Shown one piece after another: positions 6,393 to 54,648 of a DNA stretch of 64,000 nt. This stretch comes from Paramacrobiotus metropolitanus. Taxonomy: Eukaryota; Tardigrada; Eutardigrada; Parachela; Macrobiotidae. The stretch lies in NCBI RefSeq assembly GCF_019649055.1, contig NW_026570221.1, forward strand, positions 186,001 through 250,000, given 5' to 3'. Each line of letters begins with the position of its first letter. The first letter of the stretch is position 1. Made by a program: the position numbers and the translations under genes. The notes under the pieces are model-generated. The model did not search any database and was not told the DNA's origin. It saw nothing but the letters and a program-made list of their open reading frames with translations.

Positions 6393-6420
6393 ATTCAGTT
6401 ATTATAATATTTATTTACAA

Positions 6421-15499: not shown

Positions 15500-15728
15500 A
15501 TGTTTTGGGCTCCGTACACTAGAAACTACTGCGTCACATAAACAGTACGTTAGAAGACTGAAAATTGTTTAAAAGGCTTGTACGGATGCACACTTATGCG
15601 AGGTACAGCTGAAAAATAAAATTAATCGAATCGAGACTGCCGAGAGCGTGACCAACCTGCTCTCGGGGAAGCGGTTAGAGCACAAAAAAAAGATCCACAG
15701 GAAGCATGCGCTGGCTTGTCGATCAGCC

Positions 15729-16064
15729 TGAAAGCGTGAACCCGATGATGGTTCACGCGTAGGATCAGAATTGACGGAATTCTGCCTGCCAAACAGATCT
15801 GGCAATGCTATACAGCGCCTACGCTATAGAAAGCGAGAAACGGCGTGATTGCTAGAACTTTATGACAAGACTAAATTCGTAAGAATTTCTCAATAGACAA
15901 CTCCGCATTGCTGACTGCAGCAAGCGTGGAAAAATGCGCACGTAGCCGCCACACAGTGCGGGTGCGTGCAGAACAGCGTGCTTCCGCCACGCGTAAGGCG
16001 GGCGTGCACAAAAATACAACAGACTGCCAAAGCGAGGGTGTACGCATGTACGCCTGCGCTCACA
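15729..16064 (-). repeat. 3' LTR of the giant element
   Basis: 336 bp, TG...CA, about 98% identical to 34024-34358 by eye. Near its start it carries the hairpin GTGAACC-CGATGAT-GGTTCAC, shared by both LTRs. Confidence 0.92.
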
Positions 16065-17286: not shown

Positions 17287-18421
17287 TCACTGATCGTTTG
17301 AACCATTGTCGCGGTTCCGATCGAAACGTCGTCTTTCCTTTTCATTGCGATCAGACGTTCGATCTTGAGGTTCCCTTTCCCTCTCTTGCAGCTCGTCTCC
17401 TTCGCTCCGGCTGCTAGTAGCACTGTGCCGATTTCGGTCACGTCGGCGTTGGATACGGATCAAATGCTTTCTTGCGTCAACCATCCATACTTTCTAAGTC
17501 CCGTGACCTTTTTCGATGATGATTTGATGACCTTTCCTCTACGCGTGACCTTCCTAGGTTCCTTGACCTTTTTCGAGGATGATTAAATGACCTTTTGTCT
17601 ACGCGTGACCTTTCTAGGTTCCTTGACCTTTCTCGAGGAGGATTAAATGACCTTTTGTCTACGCGTGACCTTTCTGATTCTCGTGACCTTTTTCGAGAAT
17701 GATCGGATGACCTTTCGTAGACGCGTGAACTTTCATTTCTGTCGGCTGACCTTTCCAAGTCCGACTGATACCTTTTTCTGGGCGATGATTTCGATCGTTT
17801 GAACTCGTCTCTCTTGAAATTGCTAAAGGTCTCCGTCATTTCTCTTTCTTGCGTACGGAACTTGCGCATTTCCTCGAGTTTGTCTCCAAACGCAGTTTTC
17901 ATGACTTGCGACCATCGGCCTCCTTTCATCAGGTTGACCTTTTCTTGCAGGAATATCGTATGTTCTTCTTTCGTTAGTGAGAGTGGATCCTTTAGGATGA
18001 TGTCCAATTGCTGAATGAGTGATTCGCGGATTATCGCATCTTCTACCTCTTGTTTCTTTAATATCGCGTCCGCAAAGGGTACTGCAAGTCTCGCAAGACC
18101 TTTAGCTGCACTGGCTAAACCCTTCTCTGCCGCAGCTTTCACTCTTTCTTCCAAACGCTTTCTTTCTGCTTCACGCATTTCTTGCACCGTTTTCTTTCTG
18201 AACGCATTCGCTTCCGCAGTTTTTGGAGGTTCAAGGGTTACGTCCCATCCAGATCTGCGTCCTACCGACATTCGGTATTTATCCTCCAAAATTACTCTAT
18301 CTTCGGGCGATAGTTTCAGCCACGTTTTTCTTTTGACCAGGTGCCGAAATACATCTAGGTTGCCTCTTTTTGCTTCCTGCGGAATTACCAGGAGCTGATT
18401 TGGCATCGGCACGGCGACCAC
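17287..18421 (-). CDS. SR-like 3' ORF of the giant element
   Basis: The main frame (17477-18421, 314 codons) begins with a globular part (PNQLLVIPQEAKRGN, WDVTLEPP), passes through an Ala-rich helical stretch (AAAEKGLASAAKGLARL) and ends in an Arg/Ser-rich tail made of tandem 20-residue repeats of the ERSRVDKRSFN type. A second Arg-rich frame (17287-17484) overlaps its end. The position after integrase is where env or accessory genes sit in other elements, but I see no signal peptide or membrane segment, so this is not an envelope. The RS tail suggests RNA binding or nuclear speckle targeting (inference). No family recognised. Confidence 0.65.
17490..17735. repeat. About four tandem 60-bp repeats
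   Basis: The unit contains GTGACCTTTTTCGA and TGATGACCTTT..CTACGCG, that is, two or three AAAGGTCA octamers per unit, and encodes the RS tail of the 3' ORF on the minus strand. Copies differ at several positions. Confidence 0.8.
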
Positions 18422-19455
18422 GCATTCCCCACAAGGGAATCGTTTACTTGAAAGAATGTTGTTGCGTTTGCAATCCGAGCAATCCTAGTTGTAATTTGTC
18501 GACGGGTCCCCGGTGACCTTTACAATCGACGGTATCCGTCCCTTCTCTGTCTTCTGATCAGTTTGGCTCCGTTCAGCCATTTTTCTCCGTTTTCACCTAC
18601 AATCTCAAAAATTGTAAGTCCCGTGACCTTTCATTGATTTCATTTTCCAACGTCTATCTTTAAGCCTATGACAAAAAGGCTATTCAGTGCTGAGCTGAAA
18701 CTTTTCGCTGCTCTTTGATGATGATCTTTGTCCTCCTTCTTTAGCTGAACCATTTTCAATAGTATTTGGGTGACCTTTCCCATTTTAGCCCATTCGCTAA
18801 TTACTTTAACCCCTTCGCTAATTCTACTCTTTTTGCAGAGTGTAATTTGAAAGTAATTTGAGAACTACGGTCTGCTCATCTCCTTCTCATTTCTGATTCT
18901 GATTCTTCATTTTGTGTGGTGGGCCTTTCTCCCACGCATGCTCTTCTTGTCGATGTATGGTGACCTTTCTCTACTTCGTCAGCACCATGACCTTTCAGTC
19001 CTTCTTTTCATCTGGATGAGTGCTAACCCTTTTTCCATCAAAATCTTTCCAATTTTGCGCTTCTACTTCACGATTGAGCTCGGATGACCTTTCCTCCCGG
19101 CTGTAATTTCTGCTGACCTTTAGATCCTAACTTTTCGGATGAAGTCTGATGACCTTTATCTTCCAACTTTTCGTCTTAAGTTGGATGACCTTTAGTTTCC
19201 AACTTTTCGGATGTAGTCTGATGACCTTTCGTCCTCAACCTCTTCTTGGACCTTCCCTTCTTGCCTGCTTAGTACCATTCTCTCATGAGCAACCTTCAGC
19301 GAAGTCAATTTCATTCTTCTTTTTACTTGAGCTCGGGTGACCTTCCGCCCCGGCTGAGCTTCCCGCTAAAGTATGATGACCTTTAGATGGTTCACTCGAT
19401 CTCTGATCTTTCCGCTCCTTTTCGTTTTGCGCCAATCATCCGTGAGCGTTTTCAT
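18422..19455. other. Non-coding spacer of the giant element rich in AAAGGTCA
   Basis: No frame of note. TGACCTTT occurs at least ten times, often as GATGACCTTT (about 19083, 19148, 19184, 19220, 19376), which is the highest density outside the 60-bp repeats. Confidence 0.7.
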
Positions 19456-20102
19456 TCAACGGCGTAATCGGAAATGGCTTCGATTTGCGGGCTTATTTCT
19501 GATGACCTTTACACCGTCCCAACTTCCAGTCTTAATGTCATAAACTCCTATAAGCCTGATTTTCGGGTTTATTTGTTTTCGTCCTTTAGTTATCCTAACA
19601 AGTAATGCTTTGTCGGCTTCATCTTCGTCTTGGACTTCCCCTCTCAGAATCTGTTCTGGAGTCGGCTTCGGAGTTTTCTTCGTTTTCTTGACCTTTCGCT
19701 TCTCAATTTCGTTTGCGATCCGTTGGCCAAGTTGGTCGGCTTTCTCTTTGACGGCTTTTATCTGTTCCGCCCTCGAAAGGTCATCGTTAGTAGCGGAGCG
19801 TGGTTCGAAAGTATCTTGCGATTTACGCTCTGCTACTTTCTGAGCAGGCTCATCCATTTTCGCCCTTGAAAGGTCATCTTTAACGTTAGTAGCGGAGCGT
19901 GGTTCGAAAGTATGCATTGAATTAGGCACCACTTGAGATCCATGATCTGCGCTTTCTTTATCTCGGTTCGGTGTGACCTTTCATTTTCCTCAATCGTGGC
20001 CAAATTCCCCGCTTCTTGATTAAGCTTCATAGTGACTGGCGTCTCAAAGTCTGTAACCTCTTTCTTCGGTCTTCCTCTCTTTTTCTTAGCTGGCTCTTCC
20101 GC
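19456..20102 (-). CDS. Repeat-peptide ORF downstream of integrase
   Basis: A 158-codon frame (19456-19932) with two copies of the TFEPRSATN peptide, a Lys/Glu-rich helix and a C-terminal part ending in GVYDIKTGSWDGVKV. It may be the end of the integrase polyprotein broken by a stop or shift near 20000, since the same peptide closes the integrase frame. No domain recognised. Confidence 0.5.
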
Positions 20103-21160
20103 CTATTTTGGCTCTTCTACCTCTTTTGGCTCTTCTGCTTCTTTCGGTACAGAGCGTGGTTCGGAAGTATGCCGACGACTATGCTCTGCTACATCTTTGT
20201 CCGAGCGTGGTTCGAAAGTATGAGAGCCATGCTCTGCTTGAGCTTGAAGGCGTGGTTCGAAAGTATCTTGAGAATCGCGCTTTGTACCTCGTCCGTCATG
20301 ACCTTTCTCAATAGTTTCCGCAGCTGCCCTTTCAGCTTGAACTTTCTGAACCGGTAGCGGCGGATGCCACGGTTTCAGACGATCCACCGAAACGACTCGT
20401 AGGTCCGGTTCCTTCACCGCGTCTTGTTCGATGACCTCAACTTCGTTCGGTCTCGGAAAACTGAGAATCCTCCACACTTTATCGTATTTGTTCTTGAAGT
20501 CAGTTTGATTCTCCTTCTTTCCTTGCTTCGTATCTTTCGGCAGTCTGATTAAGACTCGATCTCCAACCTTGAATTGCGGTTTTGATTTCTTCTTGTTGTA
20601 GATTTCCGCGTGCTTTTCGTAAGCGTCTTTGATGTTGCATTTTGCCACTTCCTCTGAAAAGGTCAAGTTTCCTTTCGTGGTTTCGACCCATTCATCTGGT
20701 GCACCATAATCATCGGGGATGTTCGTCTTCGTCACTACGTCTTCTGGCATGGTCATCTCTCTTCCGTGAAGCATGTAGCATGCTGAGTACCCCGTTGTTG
20801 CGTGTACTGCGCGGTTCATTGCCGATATGACGTAGGGAAGATACTTGTTGAACTTCCTTTCATTTCCCGCTTTCAAGTACTGCGACAATCCATCACTGAT
20901 GGTCTGCATCTGTCTTTCAACCTGTCCTTGACCTTCAGGATGGTACGCTGTTCCAAACGTGTGTTTGATTTTAAACACGTTGGTGACCGTTTCAGTACTT
21001 CTGCGGTGAAATGCCTTCCGCGATCCGTGTGGAGGATATGTGGCGCTCCGTGCACCAAGATTACGTGCTTCACGAAGATTTTTGCGAATTCCTTTGCGGT
21101 GGCTGTTTTCATTGGCTCCGCTATGACGTACTTCGTGAGCTGGTCATAAAGACCGCGATA
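20103..21160 (-). pseudogene. Integrase of the giant element, N-terminus missing
   Basis: Reads through a frameshift near 20980. Present are QLTKYVIAEP, the second catalytic Asp in HTDRGRHF and the Glu in GTAYHPEGQGQVERQ, then a C-terminal SH3-like part (KVGDRVLIRLP) and a tail with three EPRS peptides. The H2C2 zinc module and the segment with the first catalytic Asp are not found; the preceding frame ends abruptly at 21163, consistent with a deletion. The copy could not integrate by itself. Confidence 0.85.
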
Positions 21161-21162
21161 TC

Positions 21163-21885
21163 CTAAGTAGATAGATGCGTCTCGAACTTTGACCTCTTGT
21201 CTGCGTCTTGCAGGTGCTCCAATTCATCGATGATCATCGCCAGGTGCGGGTCTTTTAGCTGCTTGTTCCGCAACTGCAAATTCGTATCATCTTCTTCCTC
21301 TTCGTCCCCTTGGAGATTGACGATGCGGACTACTACTGTGCTGGGTTCATTCCAATCTTTGATAACCTTGCATCTCGGAAGAGGTTTGTCACCTTTCTCA
21401 ATTTTCTGTGGGAATCTCAGCAATCTGATGGGACACGGAATGTATTCGGAGAGGATTTCTGCTTCGCAAAGGTCATTCTGGTCTACCATTTTCTGACCAT
21501 CTTTCGTGACCTTTCCTTCTTTTCGTTCTAAGGCTTCTTTTCTCACTCTGTTGACCTTTATCTTGGTAGCAGAGCGGGGTTCGAAAGTCAGACGACGACT
21601 ACGCTCTGCTTCATTTATGCTCGAGCGCATATCTCCGCTTTATTTTTCTTCCGACACAACCCTTCTCATGTCGGCTTTCAGCCTTTCTTCCCTTTTTTCG
21701 GCTAATTACACGAAAAGTTGCCAAACTTCGATCGGAGGTTCCTCTCTGGTGAGTTCGTTCTTGTAATCTTCGAAGTTCGGGATCTCATCATACTCTTCTT
21801 CGTTACAAGTGGGACCTTCAACTGGCGCTCTTGAGAGGGCATCCGCGTTGTCGCAGTATTTGCCCGGCTTGTACTCGATCTTGAA
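21163..21885 (-). pseudogene. Linker between RNase H and integrase, giant element
   Basis: Starts with the connection typical of gypsy pol (IEYKPGKYCDNADALSRAP just after an in-frame TGA at 21886-21888), then a 155-codon frame with one EPRS peptide and a charged stretch ending DPHLAMIIDELEHLQDADKR, which resembles the region before the integrase zinc module. The zinc module itself is lacking. Confidence 0.65.
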
Positions 21886-22206
21886 TCAGTGACCTTGAAG
21901 TGCCAACGCCCATCTTGTCAATCTTGGGTTCATGCATGACTTGTTCGACTCCGACCTTAGGAGATTCGTCAAGGCTTTGTGATCCGTTCTCACTGTGAAT
22001 TCGGAGTAGTCAATGTACGACTTGAACTTTCTGACGGCGAAGACTACCGCCTGGCATTCCCATTCTGTTACTCCGTAATTCTTTTCCGCTCCATGCAAAA
22101 CGCGGCTTGCGTATGCAATGGGATGTCCATCTTGGGACAAGATCGCACCTAGCCCTTCCTTTGATGCGTCGCACTCGATCACTGCCATGACCTTTTCGGG
22201 ATCCAT
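21886..22206 (-). CDS. RNase H domain, giant element
   Basis: Shows the gypsy RNase H signatures ECDASKEGLGAIL, TEWECQAVVFAVRKF and TDHKALTNLL. It is in the same frame as RT, separated only by a TAA at 22207-22209, and is followed by an in-frame TGA. Degrades the RNA strand during reverse transcription. Confidence 0.88.
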   Translation of the reverse strand: MDPEKVMAVIECDASKEGLGAILSQDGHPIAYASRVLHGAEKNYGVTEWECQAVVFAVRKFKSYIDYSEFTVRTDHKALTNLLRSESNKSCMNPRLTRWALALQGH

Positions 22207-23493
22207 TTAGATACCATTCTCGCTGAGGATATGCCCCAAGAATCCCATTTCGAGCATGCCAAATTCGCATTTCGTCGGCTTAATTGTGAAGCCTGCGTTA
22301 ACCAAACTTTGAAGGACGTTCCTTAAGTTCTGCATGAAGATCTCCCAGGTCTTCCCTGCGAAGATCACGTCATCGATATAGCCGAAAACGCATCCCATTC
22401 TCTTTGCGTTCGACAAGACTTTATCCATGCAAAGTTGAAAGGTCGCAGGTCCATTGCAGACTCCAAAAGGCATTCTTTTGAAACGTAACATTCCGTCCTG
22501 CGTGACGAAGGTCGTCTGATCTTTCGAGGCTGGATACATTGGGATCTGCCAGAAGCCACTTTGTAAGTCCATCTTGCCGTAGTATTTGTTTCCCGCACAT
22601 GCGTCAAGCAATTCGTCCGGGTTCGGCAGTGGATAGTTATTCTTTTTCGTCAGCTTGTTCAGCAGGATGTAATTGACGCAGAATCTTGTTCCCATAGTTC
22701 CGTCACCATTCTTCTTTGCGGCCAGTACGACCGGAAAACTCCATTCCGCATCGGATGGTTCAATGACATCTTGCTGTATCATCTGTTCGATGTGTTTCGT
22801 GATGAATTCGCGACCTTTCCAACTTGTTCTTGCTGGATTGCATTTGACCGGTTTGGCATCGGCTGTGTCAATAGTGTGCGTTACCCCTTTGACATCGCCA
22901 TACGGTTTCCTTGACGTGGGGAGAACTTTCCAAAACTCCCAAAATGCATTTCGCACGTCATTCTTTTGTTCTTCGATTAGGTCTGGTCCTAACTTTAGTC
23001 TTTCGATGATATCATTCAGTTCTTCTTTCGTCTTTGCATCCACTTCAGGATCTTCAGGTATATTTTTCACGACGGTAGCCGAGTTGACCTTTACATTCTC
23101 TAGGTGTTCGTAATGTTCTACGTAACCGAGAAATTGGCCCTTCCTTACGGTCTTTCGGCTTTTACTTCGGTTTTCGATAACGATTTCAAATCGAGTGCCG
23201 TTATGGTCCGTGACTCCCGTTCTCGGTTGGACTTCGTTATCCTTTTGAGGAGTTGCTGTATACATCAGCTTCTGATTCCGTGGCACATGAGCGCCCATCT
23301 TGACTTTCACGCGCGTGCCGAGATTCGGTCTCAGCTTAACACGTTGATCGCTGTAAACCTTGATCGCTCCTTCTGGGATCCTTGCTTTCTGCACTTTAAT
23401 TCTTCGAACAATGATCTCTTTCTCTTGTTGTTCGTTCTTTTCATCGTCTTCATCAAGGTCAAGCAGATCTTCCTGATCTGAAAGGTCACTCAC
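22207..23493 (-). CDS. Reverse transcriptase domain, giant element
   Basis: 428 codons. N-terminal 180 residues are acidic and may include the end of the spacer. RT motifs follow in order: a FCVNYILLNKLT block, MDLQSGFWQIPM, RMPFGVCNGPATFQ and the catalytic YIDD in FGYIDDVIFAGK. The frame is continuous with the 740-codon spacer upstream except for one TGA at 23494-23496. GYIDD with a preceding PFGVCNGPATFQ fits Ty3/gypsy RT. Confidence 0.92.
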   Translation of the reverse strand: MSDLSDQEDLLDLDEDDEKNEQQEKEIIVRRIKVQKARIPEGAIKVYSDQRVKLRPNLGTRVKVKMGAHVPRNQKLMYTATPQKDNEVQPRTGVTDHNGTRFEIVIENRSKSRKTVRKGQFLGYVEHYEHLENVKVNSATVVKNIPEDPEVDAKTKEELNDIIERLKLGPDLIEEQKNDVRNAFWEFWKVLPTSRKPYGDVKGVTHTIDTADAKPVKCNPARTSWKGREFITKHIEQMIQQDVIEPSDAEWSFPVVLAAKKNGDGTMGTRFCVNYILLNKLTKKNNYPLPNPDELLDACAGNKYYGKMDLQSGFWQIPMYPASKDQTTFVTQDGMLRFKRMPFGVCNGPATFQLCMDKVLSNAKRMGCVFGYIDDVIFAGKTWEIFMQNLRNVLQSLVNAGFTIKPTKCEFGMLEMGFLGHILSENGI

Positions 23494-25716
23494 TCAAGAA
23501 TCTTCAGAAGTGGTCGAGTTGTCGCTCGAGCTCGAAAATTCCGAGTCGGATTCGATGCTATTGTTAGCTTCAAGCGCTTGACTTTTGCTCTTTTTCTCGA
23601 TCGGTCGCTCGTCGACACCTTCGTCTTCGCTTTCTGTTGAAAGGTCATCGCTTTTATCCTTGGAAGCGCTAAGTTTTTCCGTTTTTCGTTTTTCGGGCAG
23701 AGGTTTGTCCGTTTCCTTGGACTTTCGCCCGTTTCGTACAGCTATCCTAGGATTTGTTCTTGTTGCGCGAATCCTTGCTCGTGACCTATCCCTTTCATCG
23801 TCTTCCGAGCTATCAACTGCTTCAGCGGTATTCTGTGACCTTTCTGCTTTTTTGACTGGCGGCCCTTCCTCAACAGTTTCGGGTAATTGTTCGTCAATTT
23901 TAGGAACTGATCTTTCTGGCTCTCCTTCCTCCAGCATCGCGCTTAGTGATCTTTCGTTCTTCTCGGTTGGTGGCCGTTCCTCACCATGGCCGAGTGACCT
24001 TTGCAATGATGCAACCAACGCTGCTGCCTTTTTCTCTTTTGGAGACATTTGAGCCTTTTTTGCCTCTGTTACCGGGATTCCATTTTCTTTATCCCGAATC
24101 GCCTGGTTCAGTTCCTTGATCATCTGAGCCAACTCATACGCCGTGTGCGGAGGTTCCTCTTCTTCGGCGCCTGTGCCGTTTTCTTGAGCAGCGCTTGTGC
24201 TGACCTCTTGTTCTTTTTCTTTAGTTTCTTCGGCGCTTGTGCCATTATCTTTGCTCTTTTCTTCTTCGGCTCTTGTGCCGTTTTCTTTTTCGGCGCTTGT
24301 GCCTTGGCCTTTAGGTCTCTTATCGCCAATAAAGACGCAGTTTGCCATCAACTCTTCTGTTGTCCAGTCATTTTTCGGTATCGTCTCGTACATGCACCAA
24401 GTATCTCCGCCTCTTTCGGGATACTCCACTCCATCTGGATCTGGTGCAAAGGTCACCTTCTTCTTTATTGGATAACCGAATAATCCAAGTTCGCGTCTTT
24501 TTCGTGTGACCTTTAGCTCTGGAATTTCTCCTGTAAATATCGGTACTTCTTCGAGGATTTTGCCCCATTGTTTATTCCATTCTCTTAAGCTTCCCTTTTT
24601 GAGGCAGGCCTGGTAATGGTCAAATAATTCGTACACTACTGTGCCGAGTCCAATTGGGAAAATGACCGTTCTTCCTTGACCTTTCCATAGGTAATTGACT
24701 CTGAATTCCCAGAATAAGTCAACCCTAGCTTGTTCCCATATTTCGTTCTCTTCCATTGCTCGTCGCCTTTCTCTGTCGAGCTTTATAATCGGGCTTGTAT
24801 ACCATGGATCGCTTTTATCCGCTTTCTCGGGAATGAAGTTATCCGCTTCCTGCTGCCAATGATGGAGCCACTTCCCTCTGGAGATGATGTAGTTCTTGAC
24901 TACTGATAACCATTCTCGATAACATTGCCAAAGGTAAGTTGCTTTTGACAATTCCGGCATGGGGAGTGTTCTCATAATCGACTTGACCTCTTTCTCTTCT
25001 TGTCTTTTATGACGTGCAATTGCTGCATTGCATTTTGGCCATTCCGAAAGGTCATCTTGCGTCATTTCTTGCATGCACTTTGCACACTTTTCTTGAGGTC
25101 TCGCTATCGAAAGGTCATCGCTGTCGTGCCAATCATGATGGCAAGAGGTTGCTCTCTCTTTCGCAGTCCATTCTCTTGGGTTGCGGGAAACGACGCGATT
25201 TTCCCTTTCCGGCATCCTTTGTCTCGGTTCGGGGCGGACGATCGCTCGCTTATCCGTTTCTCCGGAGTCGGTATCTGTCCATTCATCGTCCCTTTCTATT
25301 TCGATTACACTGTTATCTGACGATATTTCAATGACTTCAATTTCATTTGCAGAGCGTGGTTCGGAAGTAAGACGACGGCTACCCTCTGCTACCTCTTTGC
25401 GCAGGCGCGTGTCTCGACCTTTCATCCGCTGCCCTTTAGCTTCATTGCGTGTTTCATTAGCAGTGCGTGGTTCGAAAGTATGCCGAGAACCATGCTCTAC
25501 TTTCTTCGTATCCAGTTGTTTTCTGGCTTGATCTCGTATTTCCGAGAATAGTGCTCTTTCGTCACTGTTCATCAGTCCAGGCTCTGTCCTGGGCCCAACC
25601 ATTCTCGTGCCCAGTGCCTCTGGTACTGGGAGTAGGCTTGACCACTCCATTCCTGGCACTAGCGACTGTTTCTTTGCAATCAGCGCTTCTGCTTGCATAA
25701 TCTTGATCTGCTCCAT
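23494..25716 (-). CDS. 740-codon acidic spacer protein between protease and RT
   Basis: No recognised domain except a central part rich in Trp (ATYLWQCYREWLSVVK, WEQARVDLFWEF) that may be globular. The rest is Glu/Lys-rich with repeats GTSAEE/NGTRAEEE and a Ser/Glu C-terminus. Two EPRS palindromic units and several AAAGGTCA octamers lie in it. A zinc-like cluster (about residues 195-235, CHHDW..CAKCMQE) is visible. Insertions of this size between protease and RT are unusual in gypsy elements. Confidence 0.6.
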   Translation of the reverse strand: MEQIKIMQAEALIAKKQSLVPGMEWSSLLPVPEALGTRMVGPRTEPGLMNSDERALFSEIRDQARKQLDTKKVEHGSRHTFEPRTANETRNEAKGQRMKGRDTRLRKEVAEGSRRLTSEPRSANEIEVIEISSDNSVIEIERDDEWTDTDSGETDKRAIVRPEPRQRMPERENRVVSRNPREWTAKERATSCHHDWHDSDDLSIARPQEKCAKCMQEMTQDDLSEWPKCNAAIARHKRQEEKEVKSIMRTLPMPELSKATYLWQCYREWLSVVKNYIISRGKWLHHWQQEADNFIPEKADKSDPWYTSPIIKLDRERRRAMEENEIWEQARVDLFWEFRVNYLWKGQGRTVIFPIGLGTVVYELFDHYQACLKKGSLREWNKQWGKILEEVPIFTGEIPELKVTRKRRELGLFGYPIKKKVTFAPDPDGVEYPERGGDTWCMYETIPKNDWTTEELMANCVFIGDKRPKGQGTSAEKENGTRAEEEKSKDNGTSAEETKEKEQEVSTSAAQENGTGAEEEEPPHTAYELAQMIKELNQAIRDKENGIPVTEAKKAQMSPKEKKAAALVASLQRSLGHGEERPPTEKNERSLSAMLEEGEPERSVPKIDEQLPETVEEGPPVKKAERSQNTAEAVDSSEDDERDRSRARIRATRTNPRIAVRNGRKSKETDKPLPEKRKTEKLSASKDKSDDLSTESEDEGVDERPIEKKSKSQALEANNSIESDSEFSSSSDNSTTSEDS

Positions 25717-25775
25717 TGTTGGTGACCTTTGCTTTCCTTTTGACTTCGGTGACCTTTTGCTTTTTTCAGCATTTT

Positions 25776-26672
25776 CTAATCCCTGTGCCTCTGATACAGG
25801 GAGTAGATCTCACCATTCTCATTTTGCTTATTTTCTTTCAATCCCTGTGCCTCTGGTACTGGGATAGCTGTTTGCCCCGAATCATTTCTTGGTTGAAGTT
25901 CAGTGACCTTTCCCGCATTGACTTTTGCAGAGGATTTCGGCTCATCATCTTCAGCTTCAGTTTCTCGTTCTTCCTCGTCATCTCCGTCTATCAGGACAAA
26001 TTTCTTTGCGAGGAAGTCGAATCCTAGTAGGACTTGAACATCGTCTGACGCTGGTCTGACGTAAAATGAGTGTTGACTCGTTTTCTTTCTTAAGGTCACT
26101 GGTGCTACGCAGTAATGTGTTACTTCAAAGCCTGACGTTCCGCTGATTCCTCTGATCATCACCTTCTTTTTCGGTGGTAGTCTTACAGTCTGGAGGCCAT
26201 TCCTTTCACAGAACTGTTGACAAATCAAAGACGTCTCTGCGCCCGTGTCAAGCATTGCCATGACCTTTTTGTTTCCAATTTTGACTTTGTGCGTGTATGC
26301 TTCAATCCGTTTTGGTAAATTTCCGTCTTCGAGTTTCAAGACTCTTATTCGACACTTGACTGGGATTGGTGCAACGTGCTTGCTCTCTATCAAGCCTTTT
26401 GAGCTCCAACGGTCTATCCGTTTCGGTACGTCGGGTCGCACGTCTGAGAACTTTTCAATCCTCTTTGACTTCGGTAAGGCATCCGTCTGCTCCTTCGCAG
26501 CGATTTCTTTGCCCGTGACCTTTGCCACTTCGCACATTAAACCCTTCTCCTGTGCGTTCTCGTGACTTTTCGTCACTTGCGCAATAACTTCGTATTGTGA
26601 CCTTTCATTGCGCACGTCTTTGGACGGTTTTTCTTGTGTCAGGGCGGGCTTATGATTCAGCCCTTCTCTCAT
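25776..26672 (-). CDS. Aspartic protease, giant element
   Basis: Catalytic motif AMLDTGAETSLI and the later LLGFDFLAKK signature mark a retropepsin of the gypsy type. It cleaves the Gag-Pol polyprotein. The frame is joined to the upstream linker by indels (26660-26860) and to the spacer by a further shift next to a palindromic repeat at 25781-25801, so the polyprotein is not continuous in this copy. Confidence 0.87.
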   Translation of the reverse strand: MREGLNHKPALTQEKPSKDVRNERSQYEVIAQVTKSHENAQEKGLMCEVAKVTGKEIAAKEQTDALPKSKRIEKFSDVRPDVPKRIDRWSSKGLIESKHVAPIPVKCRIRVLKLEDGNLPKRIEAYTHKVKIGNKKVMAMLDTGAETSLICQQFCERNGLQTVRLPPKKKVMIRGISGTSGFEVTHYCVAPVTLRKKTSQHSFYVRPASDDVQVLLGFDFLAKKFVLIDGDDEEERETEAEDDEPKSSAKVNAGKVTELQPRNDSGQTAIPVPEAQGLKENKQNENGEIYSLYQRHRD

Positions 26673-26723
26673 TGGTTGGTTTTGGGTTTTTCCTGTCTGG
26701 GCATTTCATGCGTTTTGATGGCT

Positions 26724-26752
26724 CTGTAAGGCAGCTGCGCTGCCTACAGAGA
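26724..26752. repeat. Strong hairpin between linker and protease frames
   Basis: CTCTGTAAGGCAG and CTGCCTACAGAG form a 12-bp stem with one bulged base and a five-base loop. It sits where the reading frame changes twice. Confidence 0.75.
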
Positions 26753-26857
26753 CCAGTTGGTTCTTGGCTTGCGCCCAAAGCGCGGTGTGTGTCAGATTTC
26801 GGCATTAAAGCCTTCATCCGGGTTTGCTTTGTTCCGCCGTCGATGGTCGGTGCGCGC

Positions 26858-28447
26858 CTAGCCAGCGCCACTTGACACTTGCAACTTTGCCATTATCTCT
26901 TGCGTGATTTCATCAGCGAGGGTCATCTCGTCATCTTCGCTCTTTTTCTCTGGTGACCTTTCGTACACAACCATCTTATGGTCGTTTTCTTTCATCCAAT
27001 CGGTGATTTTCTTCGCAATTTCGTTATTCGTGCGAGTGGGATCGATTTGAGATGATAATCCATCATTTCTGGGCGGTGACCTTTCGATGTCATTCCGGAT
27101 TGCTTCAGTCATGTCATACGACTTCTCCTTCTGTGGAGTTCGCGTTAAGTCCGGTGACCTTTTCGGTCTTGACATGAAAACTCCGCCATTCGGTAACCTT
27201 TGTAAAGGCACTTTCTCACCATATTGAGGCGGTAATTCACCCTTCTCAATCCGCTCTTGGAACTGACGGTTATTTTCGTCGCAGTGTACTTTCTCTTTCC
27301 AGTACTCTTGTACTTGTGGTTGTGAAGCTTTCACCATTTCCTCGAGATGCTTTCTCATCCGCCAATCTTGTCTCTCTCTTTCTTCCCAGTAAGATTCTCT
27401 GGAAATTCTCGCATCTTGCGGTGACCTTTGTGGCGGTGGAACTGGTTTCCACATACCGTGTCGTCCATTCGGCCTATAAGCAACTTTCTGCCACTGCAAC
27501 TTTTGTTGTAGAGTATTTGCCTCATCGAGAGAGTCATCTGAGACTTGCTGTGCCCCTTCGCTCTGTTTCACTGTTTGCTGCGCCATTCGCAGAGTCAAGT
27601 TTCTTTCGTGACCTTTCGGTTCATCGGCGTCTTCACCGTGACCTTTCTCTTTCAGTGATTCTTGAGTTTGTTGCACTGGCTGTCTCTCGTGACCAATCAC
27701 TTCTTCAGCTCTCTCTTGAGTTGATTTTGCATTCTCTTGCGCTCCTTGCGCTGTTGCGGCAGTTCCGTGACCTTTCTCGGCAGTTTCCTTTGCTTGAAAT
27801 ACTTTTGCCATATGCTCAAGGAATTTTGGTCTATCTGGACTGTCTTCGTGCGTTTGTTGCACCATTATGTTCATTCCGTCGACTTCATATGTCTTTTCGA
27901 CGAACTTTCGGAATCTCGCGTGATGTGTCTCATCATCCTCTTCGCTTGAGGTTTCCGCTTGCGTTTTTCGCAGAGTAGCTTTACTCTTTCTCGCGGTTGC
28001 TTTCCGCGGTGACCTTTGGGTCTGCTGTATTTGCAGCGTCACGTTACTTTCGTGACATCCTTGATTTGCAGTTACTTTCTGCTGATCCGGATGCAGAGTT
28101 GAGGCCCTTCCGTCAACCCTGTTCCCCGCAGTTACTTTCTGCGGTGACCTTTCGGTCGGCCCCGGTTGAGTCAAGTTACTTTCTTGACTTCCCGCAGTTA
28201 CTTTCTGCGGCGACCTTTCGGTCAAATTCTTCCGTCCTTGCGGCAGTCTTTTTAAACCCTTCTCTTGACCTTTGAGAGCCCCTTCGCTCGATTTCGAGTT
28301 ACTTTCTCGAATCCTCGGATTTCTTTTCCGGGTCTTTGCGTTACTTTCGTAGCATCCCTTTCTCGCTGCGGTCCTTGCCTGCAGCGGAGCACCTTGCTCC
28401 TCTATTTCCGGTGGTTTCGGTTCCGGACGATCAGTAGGCTCACCGGC
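26858..28447 (-). CDS. Pro-frame linker polypeptide entered by -1 frameshift
   Basis: This frame is open from 28447 and is -1 relative to Gag, so it is reached through the slippery site at 28465-28471. The product is highly charged and repetitive, with ERSPQKVTAG, ESN and EKGH motifs that come from the octamer and hairpin words in different frames. A PPQ/Pro-rich middle (WKPVPPPQRSPQ) and helical parts are seen but no known domain. It ends at TAG 26858-26860 shortly before protease. Confidence 0.65.
   Translation of the reverse strand, partial: AGEPTDRPEPKPPEIEEQGAPLQARTAARKGCYESNAKTRKRNPRIRESNSKSSEGALKGQEKGLKRLPQGRKNLTERSPQKVTAGSQESNLTQPGPTERSPQKVTAGNRVDGRASTLHPDQQKVTANQGCHESNVTLQIQQTQRSPRKATARKSKATLRKTQAETSSEEDDETHHARFRKFVEKTYEVDGMNIMVQQTHEDSPDRPKFLEHMAKVFQAKETAEKGHGTAATAQGAQENAKSTQERAEEVIGHERQPVQQTQESLKEKGHGEDADEPKGHERNLTLRMAQQTVKQSEGAQQVSDDSLDEANTLQQKLQWQKVAYRPNGRHGMWKPVPPPQRSPQDARISRESYWEERERQDWRMRKHLEEMVKASQPQVQEYWKEKVHCDENNRQFQERIEKGELPPQYGEKVPLQRLPNGGVFMSRPKRSPDLTRTPQKEKSYDMTEAIRNDIERSPPRNDGLSSQIDPTRTNNEIAKKITDWMKENDHKMVVYERSPEKKSEDDEMTLADEITQEIMAKLQVSSGAG
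27992..28352 (-). repeat. Array of eight hairpins with one conserved nonamer loop
   Basis: GTTACTTTC (GAAAGTAAC on the transcribed strand) is flanked by complementary arms that differ from site to site: cgcg/cgcg at 27992 (core GTTGCTTTC), gtcac/gtgac at 28038, gca/tgc at 28068, ccgca/tgcgg at 28126 and 28192, gtcaa/ttgac at 28170, ttcga/tcgaa at 28293, and a G-U wobble version at about 28336. Compensating arms with a fixed loop indicate selected RNA structure. Confidence 0.8.
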
Positions 28448-28471
28448 GCCTACTGACCTTGAACGTTTCCC
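28408..28471 (-). promoter_or_regulatory. Programmed -1 frameshift signal (slippery site plus pseudoknot)
   Basis: On the minus strand the heptamer G GGA AAC (28471-28465) stands in the X XXY YYZ phase of the Gag frame. After a 9-nt spacer an 8-bp perfect stem forms between CAGTAGGC (28455-28448) and GCCTACTG (28439-28432). The 8-base loop contains CCGGTG, which can pair with CACCGG at 28413-28408, giving an H-type pseudoknot. The gag stop TAG (28452-28450) lies inside the first stem, and the -1 frame continues as the pro frame. GGGAAAC is the known gag-pro slippery sequence of Mason-Pfizer-type retroviruses. Confidence 0.88.
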
Positions 28472-29619
28472 TGGCCCTGAACCGGCGCACCTTGCGCCTG
28501 GCCGGCACCATTCACCGGGGCGAAGTTAAATCCGCCTCCCTGCTGGCCAAAGCCGTTCTGGCCTCCACCGACAAAGCCGCCTTGCTGCCCGCCGAAGCCT
28601 CCTTGCTGCTGGTAGCCACCTTGACCACCGCCGTTCCAATGGCCACTTTGATCACCGCCATTCCACTGGCCACCTTGACCACCGCCGTTCCACTGGCCAC
28701 CTTGACCGCCAAAGTTTCCTTGGCCTCCGCCATTCCATTGACCGCCTTGGCCTTCGAAGTTGTTCTGGCCACCTTGACCACCGTAATTACCCTGGCCACC
28801 TTGACCACCGTAATTTCCGTTGCCGCCTCCTTGGCCCGGGCCGGCATAGCCGTAACCACGGTTACCTCCGCGGCCGAAGCCTCTGCCCCTTCCTCTGAAG
28901 CCTCCTCGAGCCGGGCCATTCTGGCCGTATCCTCCGCCTTGGCCACCTTGACCCGCGAAGTTACCCTGGCCACCTCCTTGATTTCCATAATTGCCCTGGC
29001 CGCCTTTACCGGCAAAGTTCCCCTGGCCACCTTGACCGCCGAAATTTCCTTGGCCACCTTGACCAGCATACTGTCCGCCTTGGCGTGACTGTGGCACATA
29101 TCCATTTGCCATCGCATTGCGCCATCCACCATGATTGTTGCGCAGCATTAGCCATTCTTCGTATACGACCCGATCGGGGTTTTGATACCACGGTGTTCCC
29201 GCGAATGAGCACGCTTGCGTGTGGTGATTGCCGTACATGCAGTTCTGGCATGTCAGCGCGTTATTGGCCACCCATCCGTCAATCATGGTGAACAGGCGCT
29301 CTACTCGCGACCCGTATCGTGGTCCTTGATTTCCATGTCCACGGTTCGGTCGGAAATTTCCCTGGTTTCCTCCGCCACCGTTGAATCCCTGGCCAGCAAA
29401 GCCCGGGTTCACCTGAGCCATTCCTTGACCACCGAGCCCTCCATTCAGGGCATTTCTTTGCACGTTTCCTTGTGGATTCTGTTTCGGTCTTGCCGCTTGC
29501 TGAGCTGATGCTTGGATCGCCGCAATCGCAGGTTTGGCTACTTCTTGAACAGCTGTTTGTATCGCCGCAATCGTCGCGTACGATACCTGACCTTCATTTC
29601 GACCGTTACCAAAGGTCAC
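28450..29619 (-). CDS. Gly-rich nucleocapsid part of Gag, giant element
   Basis: 389 codons. The N-terminal part contains a CX2CX4HX4C knuckle, CQNCMYGNHHTQAC. It is followed by many GGQGNF/GGQGGQ repeats and an RGG box (RGGFRGRGRGFGRGG), all consistent with RNA binding and condensation. It is in frame with the upstream Gag, separated by one TAA at 29623-29625, and ends at the frameshift signal. Confidence 0.85.
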   Translation of the reverse strand: MTFGNGRNEGQVSYATIAAIQTAVQEVAKPAIAAIQASAQQAARPKQNPQGNVQRNALNGGLGGQGMAQVNPGFAGQGFNGGGGNQGNFRPNRGHGNQGPRYGSRVERLFTMIDGWVANNALTCQNCMYGNHHTQACSFAGTPWYQNPDRVVYEEWLMLRNNHGGWRNAMANGYVPQSRQGGQYAGQGGQGNFGGQGGQGNFAGKGGQGNYGNQGGGQGNFAGQGGQGGGYGQNGPARGGFRGRGRGFGRGGNRGYGYAGPGQGGGNGNYGGQGGQGNYGGQGGQNNFEGQGGQWNGGGQGNFGGQGGQWNGGGQGGQWNGGDQSGHWNGGGQGGYQQQGGFGGQQGGFVGGGQNGFGQQGGGFNFAPVNGAGQAQGAPVQGQGNVQGQ

Positions 29620-29622
29620 CTC

Positions 29623-30123: not shown

Positions 30124-32661
30124 TCATGCCTTCGCGTCCCCTTTGACTGCGTTGGCGACTTCCAGCATCATAGCTGCATTCGAAAGGTCATACGCCTTCT
30201 GAGTCTCCTTGACCTGACGGATCCAACCAAGTAAAGCTTCTCGGTTGCCGTTATAGTCAATCAGCGCGGATTTCCGGGACATGGCTCTCATGATCCCTCT
30301 GAATTCCCGTTCTTCGCGACGGAGTCGCTGTGCTTCAGCGTGGTATTCCGCGCGGTATTCTCTTTCTCGCCTCTCCTCTTCACGAGCTACCTTTTCCTGC
30401 TCGTTTTGGCGAACTCGTGGATCTTCACGATTATCCGGCTGGTGGTCTGACTTATAGACGATAGTTTCATTCGGTGTTTGTTCTTGTTGTCGAGGATTGA
30501 TTCCGCCGATCCCTCCTGAGTGCCCCTTCGCCAAATCAGTATTGTCGATGACCTTTTCAGCTTTGACCTTTCCTTCGTCCTGGCCGTCACTTCGGCCGGT
30601 CCCTGTCTTTAAGGGAGCTTGGAAGTGGAAGCTGCCTTCGACGGTGTGAACTTCACCGTATCCCGGTGGCGGCGACTCTATCCGTTTCGGTCCCTTAGGG
30701 CTCCGTTGAGTCATTTCTTCTTCTTTTGCCTTTGCTGAATTTTTAAGCGCTTTAATTTCCTCTTGAAGCGTCTTATTCTGTGATTCGATCTGTCGGAATT
30801 CTTTCAGGAATTCATTAGCGTCTTTTCTCAACTTCTCATAATCCTTGTTTGCTTCGGTGACCATTCTCATCTGTTCGAGGATTGTGCTTGCCCGGTTATC
30901 AAGGGTCTTATCGAGATCCATTTTCGCTGCATTTAGGATCTCAGCTTCTGCTTCCAGGCATGTGATACGATCCGCTCTGTGCGCGAGGGTCCTTCCTCTC
31001 GCTTCGCACTCCTCTTTGACTGTTTCAAGCTCCTTGATTTTATCATCCTTTTCCATAACTATAGTGGCCAATTCTACGAGTTCATCGCTGAGTTTTGTGA
31101 TCTCTGCTTTTTGTTTCTCGTTTTCCTTTTGCCCTTCTTTATATGCGACCTCTAGCACAGTGACCCGTTCGTCACACCGTTGTGCTTCTTTCAGCCACTT
31201 CTTTGCTTCTTTCTTTTGGTTCTCAGCTTCATCATTGAGTCGCTTAAATTCAGTTTTTGTTTTTTCAGCCAGTTCAAGCAGTTCCTTCGCTGCTTGATCT
31301 CTCTGGCTCTCTGCTTTGTGTTGTTTCTTTGTCTTGTCTTGCAAATCCATTTGAAGTGTTTTGATATTTTCCTCGCGTGATTTGAGGTCATCCTTCAGTT
31401 TTGAGATGTCCGCTGTCAGACTAGCTACCTTTCCTGTGAACTTTGTCGCATTTGACAGGGATTCGTCACGCTTCTTCTCCGCTTCTTTGACCTTTAACTG
31501 TAAAAGGTCACGCTCTTTTTTCAATTCCGCTATCTCCCGTGACCTTTCGGCTGCTTCCTCGGACAGACCGTAGTCTTCTGCGGTGAGTATACCTTCCGCG
31601 TCTCGATCTTCGACCATTTTCCTAAGATCTTCCGCAGCTTTTTTCTGACCTTCAAATCTGACTTTCCATGGTTGCGCTTCGTCCTCGAACGTGACCTTTT
31701 CTTGTTCCATCACGCTCAATCTGGCTTCGACTTCAAAGGTTTTATTGCGTTGGTCCCGGATCGCAGCGAAAGCTTGCGCTTCCTTTTCATCGAGGAGTTG
31801 TTCTAGTTCCTTGACACGCTGCTTTAATCCGCTCATTACAGACGTTTTTGGTGATGGTGACCTTTGTTCCCGGTCGTCGGCTCTTTCTGACGCCGTTCCT
31901 TCGAAGGTCTCTTCTAGTTTGTCCTGGAAGGTCGTTTCAAACATCCCTTTCGTTAAGTTGGCCTCTTTCATTGCCGTATGGAAAGACGTCCGTATCGTCG
32001 TTTCATCTTCATCGTCAGTGTAGACCTTTTCGCTCGACACGGGAGTGGTACCATTCTCTTCCAGCTGTTCTTGTAGGAACAGTGAGTTATCCGAAAGGTC
32101 ATCCTGTTTGACCTTTTCTTCGTCAATCAGCATATCGCTGCTGACGGCGCCACCTCCTTCGGTGACCTTTTGACTGACTTCGTCATTTCCCTTCTCAACT
32201 TGATCCGCGTTTTTCTCCTTGACCTTTTTGGCCGACCGTGCCATTCCTCCGGTCTCGGCCTTCAGGTCGTCTTCATTCTGTCCATCTGCAGCCATTCTCA
32301 CATCGGTGACCTTTGATGAGTCTACCGTGTCTCCGGCATGTCGCTCGGAGCTTTTTCCATTTCCGTCACTGGAGCTTTCATTCTGGGTTTCTTTTAGAGC
32401 CTTTTGATACGTGGCTTCTGACCCTTTGGTGTCCTTCCTCCCAAAGGTCTTTTGAGCTCGAGTTGCTCTTTCATGTTCCACTGGCCGTGTGTACGGCTTT
32501 AGTTTCCGTTCGTAAGGGTTTTCTGACCCCTGAAACCGTTCTCTCTGACTACCCGCTGAGACCGGTTCATTACCGTCTATATCTTGATCCAAGTCTGTAG
32601 GTTCCGTTGATGATCGGATAACTTGGACGATGCTGTTAATGTTTCTGACACGTGTGTTAGT
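30124..32661 (-). CDS. Long coiled-coil N-terminal Gag region, giant element
   Basis: Open for about 845 codons but no ATG opens it: the frame follows TAA near 32661 and the first in-frame Met is about 100 residues in, so translation may begin after splicing or in a different way. Residues about 240-640 are heptad-like coiled coil (Glu/Lys/Leu-rich). The last 80 residues (SALIDYNGNREALLGWIRQVKE) start a Gag capsid-like domain that continues beyond a TGA. Coiled-coil extension of Gag to this length is unusual; a captured host coiled-coil segment is possible. Confidence 0.75.
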   Translation of the reverse strand, partial: TNTRVRNINSIVQVIRSSTEPTDLDQDIDGNEPVSAGSQRERFQGSENPYERKLKPYTRPVEHERATRAQKTFGRKDTKGSEATYQKALKETQNESSSDGNGKSSERHAGDTVDSSKVTDVRMAADGQNEDDLKAETGGMARSAKKVKEKNADQVEKGNDEVSQKVTEGGGAVSSDMLIDEEKVKQDDLSDNSLFLQEQLEENGTTPVSSEKVYTDDEDETTIRTSFHTAMKEANLTKGMFETTFQDKLEETFEGTASERADDREQRSPSPKTSVMSGLKQRVKELEQLLDEKEAQAFAAIRDQRNKTFEVEARLSVMEQEKVTFEDEAQPWKVRFEGQKKAAEDLRKMVEDRDAEGILTAEDYGLSEEAAERSREIAELKKERDLLQLKVKEAEKKRDESLSNATKFTGKVASLTADISKLKDDLKSREENIKTLQMDLQDKTKKQHKAESQRDQAAKELLELAEKTKTEFKRLNDEAENQKKEAKKWLKEAQRCDERVTVLEVAYKEGQKENEKQKAEITKLSDELVELATIVMEKDDKIKELETVKEECEARGRTLAHRADRITCLEAEAEILNAAKMDLDKTLDNRASTILEQMRMVTEANKDYEKLRKDANEFLKEFRQIESQNKTLQEEIKALKNSAKAKEEEMTQRSPKGPKRIESPPPGYGEVHTVEGSFHFQAPLKTGTGRSDGQDEGKVKAEKVIDNTDLAKGHSGGIGGINPRQQEQTPNETIVYKSDHQPDNREDPRVRQNEQEKVAREEERREREYRAEYHAEAQRLRREEREFRGIMRAMSRKSALIDYNGNREALLGWIRQVKETQKAYDLSNAAMMLEVANAVKGDAKA

Positions 32662-34023: not shown

Positions 34024-34358
34024 TGAAAGCGTGAACCCGATGATGGTTCACGCGTAGGATCAGAATTGACGGAATTCTGCCTACCAAACAGATCTGGCAA
34101 TGCTATACAGCGCCACGCTATAGAAAGCGAGAAACGGCGTGACTGCTAGAACTTTATGACAAGACTAAATTCGTAAGAATTTCTCAATGGACAACTCCGC
34201 ATTGCTGACTGCAGCAAGCGTGGAAAAATGCGCACGTAGCCGCCACACAGTGCGGGTGCGTGCAGAACAGCGTGCTTCCGCCACGCGTAAGGCGGGCGTG
34301 CACCAAAACACAACAGACTGCCAAAGCGAGGGTGTACGCATGTACGCCTGCGCTCACA
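34024..34358 (-). repeat. 5' LTR of the giant element
   Basis: 335 bp, TG...CA, paired with 15729-16064. Followed by AGCC (34359-34362), the repeated target. Confidence 0.92.
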
Positions 34359-34759
34359 AGCCATACGAGGAGGAGCTACCTTGGCCCGATGGAAGGCAAA
34401 TGCGCGACCATGAACCGATCACCCTGCCCGAGCATGTTAACACTGGGCCACGTGGGTGTGCAACACGGCTAGCCACCCAGCGATGGCGGCGCAAAATGGT
34501 CAGCACTCAAGAAAGTTTCGAAAATGGCGGGGCAAAATGGTCAGCACTCAGCACCACAGCACCAAAATCTAAGCACTTCTGCTTCTGCAGTCTTTTTCGA
34601 AACCTTCTTGAGTGCTGACCATTTTGCCCCGCCATCGCTGGGTGGCTAGCCGTGTTGCACACCCACGTGGCCCAGTGTTAACATGCTCGGGCAGGGTGAT
34701 CGGTTCATGGTCGCGCATTTGCCTTTGATCGGGCCAAGGTAGCTCTTCCTCGTACGGCT
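34359..34759. mobile_element. Fold-back element adjoining the giant LTR element
   Basis: Arms of about 185 bp (34359-34545 and about 34575-34759) are inverted copies, including GCCACGTGGGTGTGCAACAC. The giant element inserted at its very left end, in AGCC. No coding capacity. Confidence 0.85.
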
Positions 34760-41089: not shown

Positions 41090-42530
<1,441 letters not shown>

Positions 42531-48265: not shown

Positions 48266-48558
48266 TACCTTTAATAGAAAGCAATCTGCTGACCACGAAT
48301 ACGGACCCCAATACCGATCCAAATTAAAATCGTGTTTGTATTGGTATTCGGCCTGCTTTTGAGTATTCGGCCGCTAGCGGCGGAAGTACGAAAAGCGAGC
48401 AACGTAACTGCCCTCGAAGCAGTTTTACCACTTGCGGCAAGTGACTTGCCACAAATGTCAAAATCACGACAACTATCTGTCGCATTTCAGTTCCAAAAAA
48501 AGCTTGACATTGTGAATTTAAATATTTATGATTCAGATTCGCTTTAGTTTATTTAAAA

Positions 48559-49768
48559 ATGAAACTGGCTACGTTAATGAAGTTGTATCTCCGGAAAAAT
48601 ATCTCTCGACGGCTGTTTTTAATTCTGCGACGTAAGATACTTCGACGGAGACGAAAAACATATTTTCATGACGAATGGCGTGCAGCATCATTTAGCCTGA
48701 ATGCTTTAAGCGAGAAGGAATGCTGGGATTTTTTCCGCTTTAAGAAGCATGATCTTCCTATGTTGGCGACGGCGCTTAAAATTCCGGAATTGGTGTGGAC
48801 TGCAGAAGGAGACTGTGTGAATGCTGTGGAGGCCTTGTGCATTTTGTTGCGCCGTCTGTGTTATCCAAATCGATGGATTGAACTGCGTAAATTTTTTGGA
48901 CGTTCCCAAGGTTCCATGTCGAGAATTTTCTACGCGGTCTTGTCAATACTGGATCGCTTGTGGTCGAAGCATCTTTCCCGCCTGGATCATCCCTGGTTGT
49001 CAGAAGAAGATCTCGCAGGGTACGCGTCGGCTATCTCACAGAAAGGAGGTGTTTTCCCAGATGTTTTTGCCTTTATTGACGGGACGGCGCGCCCCATTTG
49101 CCGACCAACATATAACCAGAAGATCATGTACAGCGGTCATAAACGTCTCCACTGCACCAAGTGGCAGTCTATTCTACTACCAAACGGTAAATTCATATTT
49201 TTGTCAATTAATAAATTACTGTAAATTTGTAATTGTTTTTTTAAACTTCCTTCACTGAGATTTAGTACATTTCAATAATTTTTGGATTTTACATTTACCG
49301 AAGTTCTGACATTTTGCTTTAGGATTAATCTGCAACCTGCACGGCGGTGAACCTGGTAGTGTCCATGACAGTCGCATGTTTCAAGAGAGTAAAATGCTCG
49401 GGCGATTAAAAACTATGCAGAGCACCTTTTGCCGGAAATTCGCGTTATATGGAGATTCTGGTTATGGAATGAACGATTATTTAAGGAAGCCGTACTCAAA
49501 ACTTCAGACAGCGTACAACCGCGTGAAGAGACACCAGAACCATGCCATGAAAACTGTTCGGGAATCTGTGGAATGGGGGTTCAAGGAAGTGGTTGTTAAA
49601 TTCGCTTTTGTGGACTTCAGAAAACAGATGAAGTTATTCGAGAAACCCGTCAACAAAATTTTTCGTATGGCTGTTTTTTTGACAAATTGTTGTAACTGTT
49701 TGTACCCTAACCAAGCAAGCCAGTATTTTAATGTTGAACCACCAACACTGGAAGAATACCTGTGTTAA
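48559..49768 (+). CDS. PIF/Harbinger transposase, two exons, intact
   Basis: Exons 48559-49186 and 49323-49768 join in frame to 357 codons. Basic N-terminus, a helical part (ALCILLRRLCYPNRWIELRK) resembling the helix-turn-helix before the nuclease, then the DDE core: Asp in FIDGTARPIC, the GHKRLHCTKWQS block, HDSRMF, Asp in LYGDSGYG and Glu in RESVEWGF. Belongs to a different Harbinger branch from the one at 10736-12383. All catalytic residues are present. Confidence 0.9.
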
Positions 49769-54116: not shown

Positions 54117-54648
54117 AGATACGGCGACAGGGGCACGGGCAGCTTTCGGTATTCGCCGCCTGACTTTCCTCCTGATGGGGGCGAAAGAGGTACGTGTCCC
54201 GCCTGCAGTCGCAGGGCGATTGTGTGCGGTGCCCTGGGCTTGAGGAGGTCCATTGGCGCGGCCCGATCCCTGGTTAATGAATCAGCGTGCTGCGGGTATT
54301 CAACAGCTGATGCCACAAAGCACGGAATCGCTCGTAGGCGCTGGGTTACGCCCCCAAGAGTGCTGCGATGCGCTGATTGGTCAGCGAGACAAAGTGAACG
54401 CTGAGTAAGCAGCGTAATAGCGCGGCACGAATGGCGTTGCCATGTGCGGGCGGGCGACAGAGCAAAGTCACAAGAGGTGTCTACCGCCTCGAGTGAGCGG
54501 TCTCTGACAGGCACTACCTTTATCTGCGTTCGCGATCTTTTATTTTTTGTAATTTCTCCACGTTAACATTATTTCCGGATTAGCTGTTTTTTCTTGAACA
54601 GCTGCCTTTGCCGCGTAATTTTACGCATCATCACCAGATAGACGCAAG

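Follow-up and report, generated by a model that had tools for sequence, protein, structure and literature searches.

A predicted programmed -1 frameshift signal with an H-type pseudoknot was located where gag meets pol in a large Ty3/gypsy-type LTR retrotransposon of the tardigrade Paramacrobiotus metropolitanus, a reading to which we assign a probability of about 93%. The element lies in the window, which here means the whole analyzed stretch of 64,000 nucleotides (contig NW_026570221.1, positions 186,001 to 250,000). The slippery heptamer, its phase, the stop codon, the open -1 frame, the complementarity of the paired strands, their conservation and the compensation in stem 1 were observed directly, and comparison gives the predicted frameshift pseudoknot very good support. 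A -1 shift with such a pseudoknot in an animal Ty3/gypsy-type element had been proposed by an earlier sequence-only reading of the window and is strongly supported by the genomic copies, which keep the heptamer, its phase and the stems, with stem 1 compensated.

Architecture of the predicted frameshift signal

All parts of the signal lie on the reverse strand. The heptamer GGGAAAC (positions 28465 to 28471) is read from the sequence as CA(G GGA AAC), in register with the gag ORF (29622-28450), whose 3' end reads CAG GGA AAC GTT CAA GGT CAG TAG. In the window copy the heptamer has the canonical form X XXY YYZ and keeps the phase of the ORF upstream of it, in agreement with the phase claimed earlier. 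The gag stop codon TAG (28450 to 28452, from the sequence and the ORF list) lies at +19 from the heptamer and within stem 1, where it had been placed before, and the -1 frame of the window copy is open for 535 codons beyond the site.

Stem 1 is formed in the fold by GGUCAGUAGGC (28448 to 28458) and GCCUACUGAUC (28429 to 28439), both strands being backed by folding, by comparison of copies and by compensation, which for the 5' strand was seen in families D and E. Its 11 bp comprise 8 Watson-Crick pairs and a 3-bp extension with one G-U pair. The perfect 8-bp core, CAGTAGGC/GCCTACTG, and the 9-nt spacer that goes with it are exactly those of the sequence-only reading, and folding lengthens the stem to 11 bp and leaves a spacer of 6 nt (28459 to 28464, from sequence and fold). 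The usual distance from heptamer to structure is about 5 to 9 nt, a range that holds the window spacer at either length.

Loop 1 is a single nucleotide (28447), G in the window and A in other copies. It is followed by the 5' strand of stem 2, CCGGUG (28441 to 28446, copy comparison), and by loop 3, a single unpaired A (28440, from sequence) separating stem 2 from stem 1. Loop 2 spans 15 nt (28414 to 28428), and its synonymous sites vary in the copy comparison. The 3' strand of stem 2, CACCGG (28408 to 28413), was placed by comparison of copies and a pattern search of the genome. As DNA, CCGGTG (28446-28441) and CACCGG (28413-28408) are fully complementary, and all 6 pairs of the earlier reading were confirmed. 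The H-type geometry, given as spacer/S1/S2/L1/L2/L3, is 6/11/6/1/15/1.

When the 63 nt following the heptamer were shuffled with dinucleotides preserved, 3 of 20000 shuffles had an S1 of 8 bp or more together with an S2 of 6 bp or more and a spacer of 5 to 9 nt, and the pattern of heptamer and stem 2 appeared in none of 100 shuffles of the window. In Rfam, the 501 bases around the site gave one chance-like match on the opposite strand (E 0.41, below the gathering score), and the whole window gave no match at gathering scores.

We infer the folding of the pseudoknot as drawn, the slippage itself and the slippage efficiency. Ribosomes translating gag would meet the H-type pseudoknot while G GGA AAC fills the P and A sites. 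Those that do not slip would read four more sense codons and then stop at the TAG inside stem 1, and some would slip to GGG AAA and carry on in the -1 frame, which would lead into protease and pol.

Stop-codon readthrough was also considered and was rejected because gag and the next ORF lie in different frames.

The host element

The host of the signal is an 18,630-nt Ty3/gypsy-type LTR element whose ends were read from the sequence letters. This length, obtained from the LTRs and a GGCT duplication, bears out the 18.6 kb given earlier. All its parts are on the reverse strand. The 5' LTR (34024 to 34358, TGTGAG...TTTCA) and the 3' LTR (15729 to 16064), which agree at 97.9% identity in an alignment of 340 nt, are bordered by the target site duplication GGCT, read from the letters at 34359 to 34362 on the upstream side and at 15725 to 15728 on the downstream side. 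LTR ends of the form TG...CA and a 4-bp target duplication are those of an LTR retrotransposon.

The 3' part of gag (28450 to 29622, ORF list), 390 aa, Gly/Gln-rich and in the zero frame, matched no Pfam family. An ORF of 845 aa (30124 to 32661), coiled-coil-like by eye, is probably the 5' part of gag; the two parts share a frame and are split by in-frame stops in the window copy. The shift would lead into a 555-aa ORF in the -1 frame (26858 to 28525, ORF list), in which no Pfam domain, protease included, was found. By eye, its end resembles the region that immediately precedes the protease in P0001, a predicted P. metropolitanus protein that, again by eye, joins this region directly to the protease. 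In the window copy, the aspartic protease (PR) has an ORF of its own (25776 to 26705; PF13975, 2.4e-10; PF00077, 4.5e-7) in a frame different from that of the -1 ORF. The sequence-only reading had a pro frame open at -1; the frame is indeed open, and the protease has to be moved to this later ORF, 26705-25776, in the other frame. The sole protein-database match of the PR ORF at E 0.001 was a P. metropolitanus protein, 53% identical.

Farther along are an ORF for reverse transcriptase (RT) (22207 to 23493; PF00078, 3.4e-25), an RNase H piece (21889 to 22206; PF17917, 3.5e-32) and an ORF matching part of the integrase core (20103 to 21143). The latter had no Pfam match and was recognized through solved integrases (E 1.2e-4) and Ty3-G Gag-Pol (E 0.016). 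The domain order PR-RT-RNaseH-IN is of the Ty3/gypsy type, IN being placed by the solved-integrase match only, with Ty3-G weakly among the matches. The window copy is aged, with gag, the -1 frame, PR and RT spread over interrupted ORFs, and since gag and the -1 frame are both interrupted, it may make no full product.

Much of the 18,630-nt length is taken up by long stretches separating gag, PR and RT and surrounding the integrase (23494-28525 and 19456-21639, reverse strand). Short repeated motifs, PVPEA, FEPRSAT and ERSP..KVT, were seen in them by eye, and PIPEA in a type D locus. An ORF of 335 aa on the 3' side of the integrase (17477-18484, reverse strand) is Arg/Ser-rich by eye, had no Pfam match and contains a 60-nt tandem repeat at 17490-17734.

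One long pol frame in relatives

Matches to PR and RT fell in open frames of equal length in several relatives, with 3124 codons in C103, 3107 in C162, 3077 in C1 and 3059 in C9; within the window's own family the corresponding frames have 2936 (C97) and 2365 codons (C9). The joining of PR and RT in one open frame argues for a shift of the single gag-pol type, in which one -1 shift would give Gag-Pol and the breaks in the window copy would be decay. Betaretroviruses need a second shift for pol, according to the available part of PMC3835772, whereas a single open frame spans protease and RT in the tardigrade relatives; a separate pro ORF with a second shift for pol was not found in them. With frames such as that of C103, the likeness to Mason-Pfizer-type gag-pro shifting drawn in the sequence-only reading turns out to be loose.

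Among the fetched B and C copies for which a match was listed, the protease was 56-67% identical to that of the window. The protease of one type D locus (PF13975, 1.9e-6) reached 49% over 101 aa, so lineages A and D are distant relatives.

Conservation across genomic copies

The genome searched comprised 169.8 Mb in 533 contigs. A 351-nt query gave 41 matches (the best 40 of 191 candidates were scored), many of them near-identical. In five B copies the DNA match was restricted to the signal (query 124-207), at 88-90% identity. Fifty-five loci were compared, anchored downstream of the heptamer: 40 from the DNA query and 15 from 132 PR matches, the latter picked because their open frames were long and their identity low. 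As a single genome supplied every copy, the counts are not independent.

The sequence-only reading would have been contradicted by copies lacking the heptamer phase or the stem; what the copies show is broad retention. The exact GGGAAAC is present in 47 of the 55 loci, and one of the eight others is cut by a contig end. The stem 1 core is complete (8/8 pairs) in 46 loci and the extension in 53, and stem 2 is complete (6/6 pairs) in 49. The second and third bases of the spacer vary between families, and all 55 loci keep an AAA close to the 3' end of loop 2. An identity profile covered only loci matching the pattern of heptamer and stem 1 (46/55, of which 45 were compared), and its values of 1.00 at the heptamer and stem 1 arise because the selection pattern contains both.

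Phase could be read by script in 34 of the 40 DNA-query loci, with GGGAAAC in 32, TAG four codons on in 32 and both in 30; in 13 of these 34 the -1 frame stayed open as far as the fetched DNA reached. An in-phase site with a stop four codons on was found in 13 of the 15 PR-derived loci; in the two exceptions, the heptamer is changed (L086) or the signal is present and the frame test failed (L089). Of 22 loci from families A-E, all but L100 have a zero-frame stop at +10 or +19 (21 of 22).

Synonymous changes in the 55 loci were counted over the part of the -1 frame that follows the gag stop. Third-base changes that keep the amino acid affected 2 of 468 codon cells in the stems versus 51 of 251 in loop 2, the cells not being independent of one another.

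Compensation in stem 1

A genome search for GGGAAAC, CCGGTG and CACCGG with stem 1 left free gave 312 matches, and a search that fixed the heptamer and stem 1 but not stem 2 gave 134; the controls, the first of them a backwards pattern, gave none. Pairing of stem 1 was tested in 100 of the 312 matches, those listed, of which 58 were distinct and three were second counts of double-heptamer signals. Among the 100 matches listed, stem 1 was of type A (families A-C) in 52, of type D in 47 and of type E in one. The type D stem, GGTCGATGAG..CTCATTCGACC, is bulged and wholly unlike type A in sequence; the type E stem, GGTCAGTGAGC..GCTCGGCTGACC, is bulged as well. In some type D copies, such as L099 (genome C3:3000622-3000700), a single pseudoknot is preceded by two GGGAAAC heptamers spaced 12 nt apart.

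Stem 1 reached -14 kcal/mol or better in 97 of the 100 matches listed (A, 51/52; D, 45/47; E, 1/1), in 30 of the 33 distinct strand pairs among them, and in 34 of 36 fetched genome loci under the same test. When stem 1 strands were swapped between types A and D, none of 494 combinations paired that well. Swaps of E strands with A or D did so in 16 of 64, which makes E less telling than D. As judged from the sequences, the predicted stem 1 is backed by covariation among types A, D and E. The covariation check proposed earlier for the genomic copies thus came out positive for stem 1, with its 0/494 swaps, and without any covariation for stem 2.

The heptamer and stem 2 pattern also matched 78 stretches of viral contigs; these were rejected as chance matches because stem 1 paired that well in only 1 of the 78.

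Stem 2 and alternative explanations

Stem 2, with all its pairs in 49 of the 55 loci, is invariant, which amounts to pairing without covariation. The pattern behind the 312 matches required exactly the letters CCGGTG and CACCGG, and only a variant at position 3 looked beyond them; this search for a compensated change at position 3 of stem 2 gave one match in the genome, without stem 1.

That the shift, though real, is stimulated by the long stem-loop in place of a pseudoknot, with or without the second nested hairpin and with CCGGTG and CACCGG conserved for another reason, is improbable. The nested minimum free energy structure of the window copy (-26.2 kcal/mol) is compatible with this, as it consists of stem 1 and a rival 5-bp hairpin that takes up part of CACCGG, and so is the lack of covariation in stem 2. 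However, all five pairs of the nested hairpin occur in only 27 of the 55 loci and in 0 of the 20 fetched B and C loci, where stem 2 is complete. At synonymous third positions, both strands of stem 2 hardly change, in contrast to the intervening loop, and the complementary hexamers stay invariant and at the right spacing even in families with a rewritten stem 1, which favors the pseudoknot.

A conserved block serving mainly RNA dimerization, packaging or protein binding, through a kissing loop ACCGGT/GCCGGT and with pol reached otherwise, is highly improbable. The palindrome ACCGGT does occur in the loop of many listed copies, and the loop and stem 2 letters are kept beyond the needs of pairing where stem 1 has changed, in a search that demanded those letters. 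Yet an in-phase GGGAAAC, a nearby stop and an open -1 frame recur in families A-E, and a kissing loop needs no downstream CACCGG. That recent amplification or gene conversion explains the conservation and chance the structure is hardly credible: one genome holds all copies and many are near-identical, but the five B copies match over the signal only, the proteases have diverged to the identities given above, such a process is not expected to compensate stem 1 or to leave the synonymous pattern, and a comparable fold arose in only 3 of 20000 shuffles.

Under the frameshift pseudoknot reading, the sameness of the loop and stem 2 hexamers appears to be the point that pairing alone does not explain. 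The same hexamer letters across families with a rewritten stem 1 suggest a role of stem 2 beyond pairing. Tentatively, and as a rather unlikely proposal, stem 2 might act in one of three ways: through a sequence-specific tertiary contact, through a kissing-loop RNA dimer formed by the ACCGGT palindrome, or through a bound protein that links frameshifting with packaging or controls the ratio of Gag to Gag-Pol.

Comparison with known systems

The tardigrade element shares with yeast Ty3 the Ty3/gypsy superfamily and a programmed gag-pol frameshift; the Ty3 shift is +1. It is described as mechanistically distinct in the part of PMC5009743 available. Closer in kind is PEG10, a mammalian gene derived from Ty3/gypsy, for which the available portions of PMC2800197 and PMC5009743 give GGGAAAC with a downstream pseudoknot. 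The two signals have in common the heptamer, a short spacer (5 nt in PEG10), a pseudoknot, a passage from a gag-like to a pol-like ORF, and high conservation. Unlike that of the mammalian gene, the tardigrade signal is present in many copies of a mobile element. The tardigrade arrangement also resembles that of the animal LTR retrotransposons surveyed in 2003, mostly Drosophila melanogaster elements, where pol lay at -1 in 28 of 51 elements, many with classical heptamers, according to the part of PMC5009743 cited here.

Among betaretroviruses and lentiviruses, the accessible part of PMC3835772 lists GGGAAAC for Mason-Pfizer monkey virus (MPMV) and SRV-1, with spacer/S1/S2/L1/L2/L3 of 7/6/6/1/12/0, and for CAEV, with 4/10/7/1/15/0, and gives MMTV a 1-nt L3, the column order of that table being as we interpret it. 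Compared with MPMV or MMTV in the same source, the tardigrade stem 1 is longer (11 bp).

The sequence-only reading had considered the combination of features new, a claim that does not stand beside the PEG10 signal (PMC2800197) and the 28 of 51 animal elements with pol at -1 (PMC5009743), as these sources present them in the parts available. GGGAAAC with a pseudoknot in MPMV, SRV-1 and PEG10, together with pol at -1 in animal LTR elements, makes this a known kind of signal. In the open-licence literature, which holds few subscription-journal papers, no tardigrade frameshift signal was reported by title or abstract start. The words "frameshift" and "Paramacrobiotus" occur 0 times in the main text, as available, of a paper on the curation of tardigrade transposable elements (PMC11071193), and "tardigrad" and "pseudoknot" 0 times in the available text of the Troyka paper (PMC12440569).

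As far as seen, the host, the size of the copy series, the compensation in stem 1 and the unvarying stem 2 are new. The finding would extend the GGGAAAC-pseudoknot signal of the retrovirus and PEG10 type to a tardigrade element, and it provides some three hundred natural matches to one predicted -1 pseudoknot, with stem 1 compensated and stem 2 unvarying. Such a copy series could teach which parts of a pseudoknot evolution leaves free.

Other features of the window

A second Ty3/gypsy-type element on the reverse strand (2094-6398) contains a zinc knuckle, a weak gag and pieces of RT, RNase H and integrase. In a 922-aa ORF (51513-54281, reverse strand), perhaps a non-LTR element, the one Pfam domain at E 0.1 is RT (PF00078, 3.2e-18). 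On the forward strand, an ORF at 62493-63446 encodes a DNA polymerase of the viral/organellar type B (PF03175, 9.1e-10), perhaps part of a Polinton-like element, and a fragment at 48532-49224 has a weak DDE transposase match (PF13359, 2.4e-4), below the cut-off. An array of AT dinucleotides covers 239 nt at 41095-41333.
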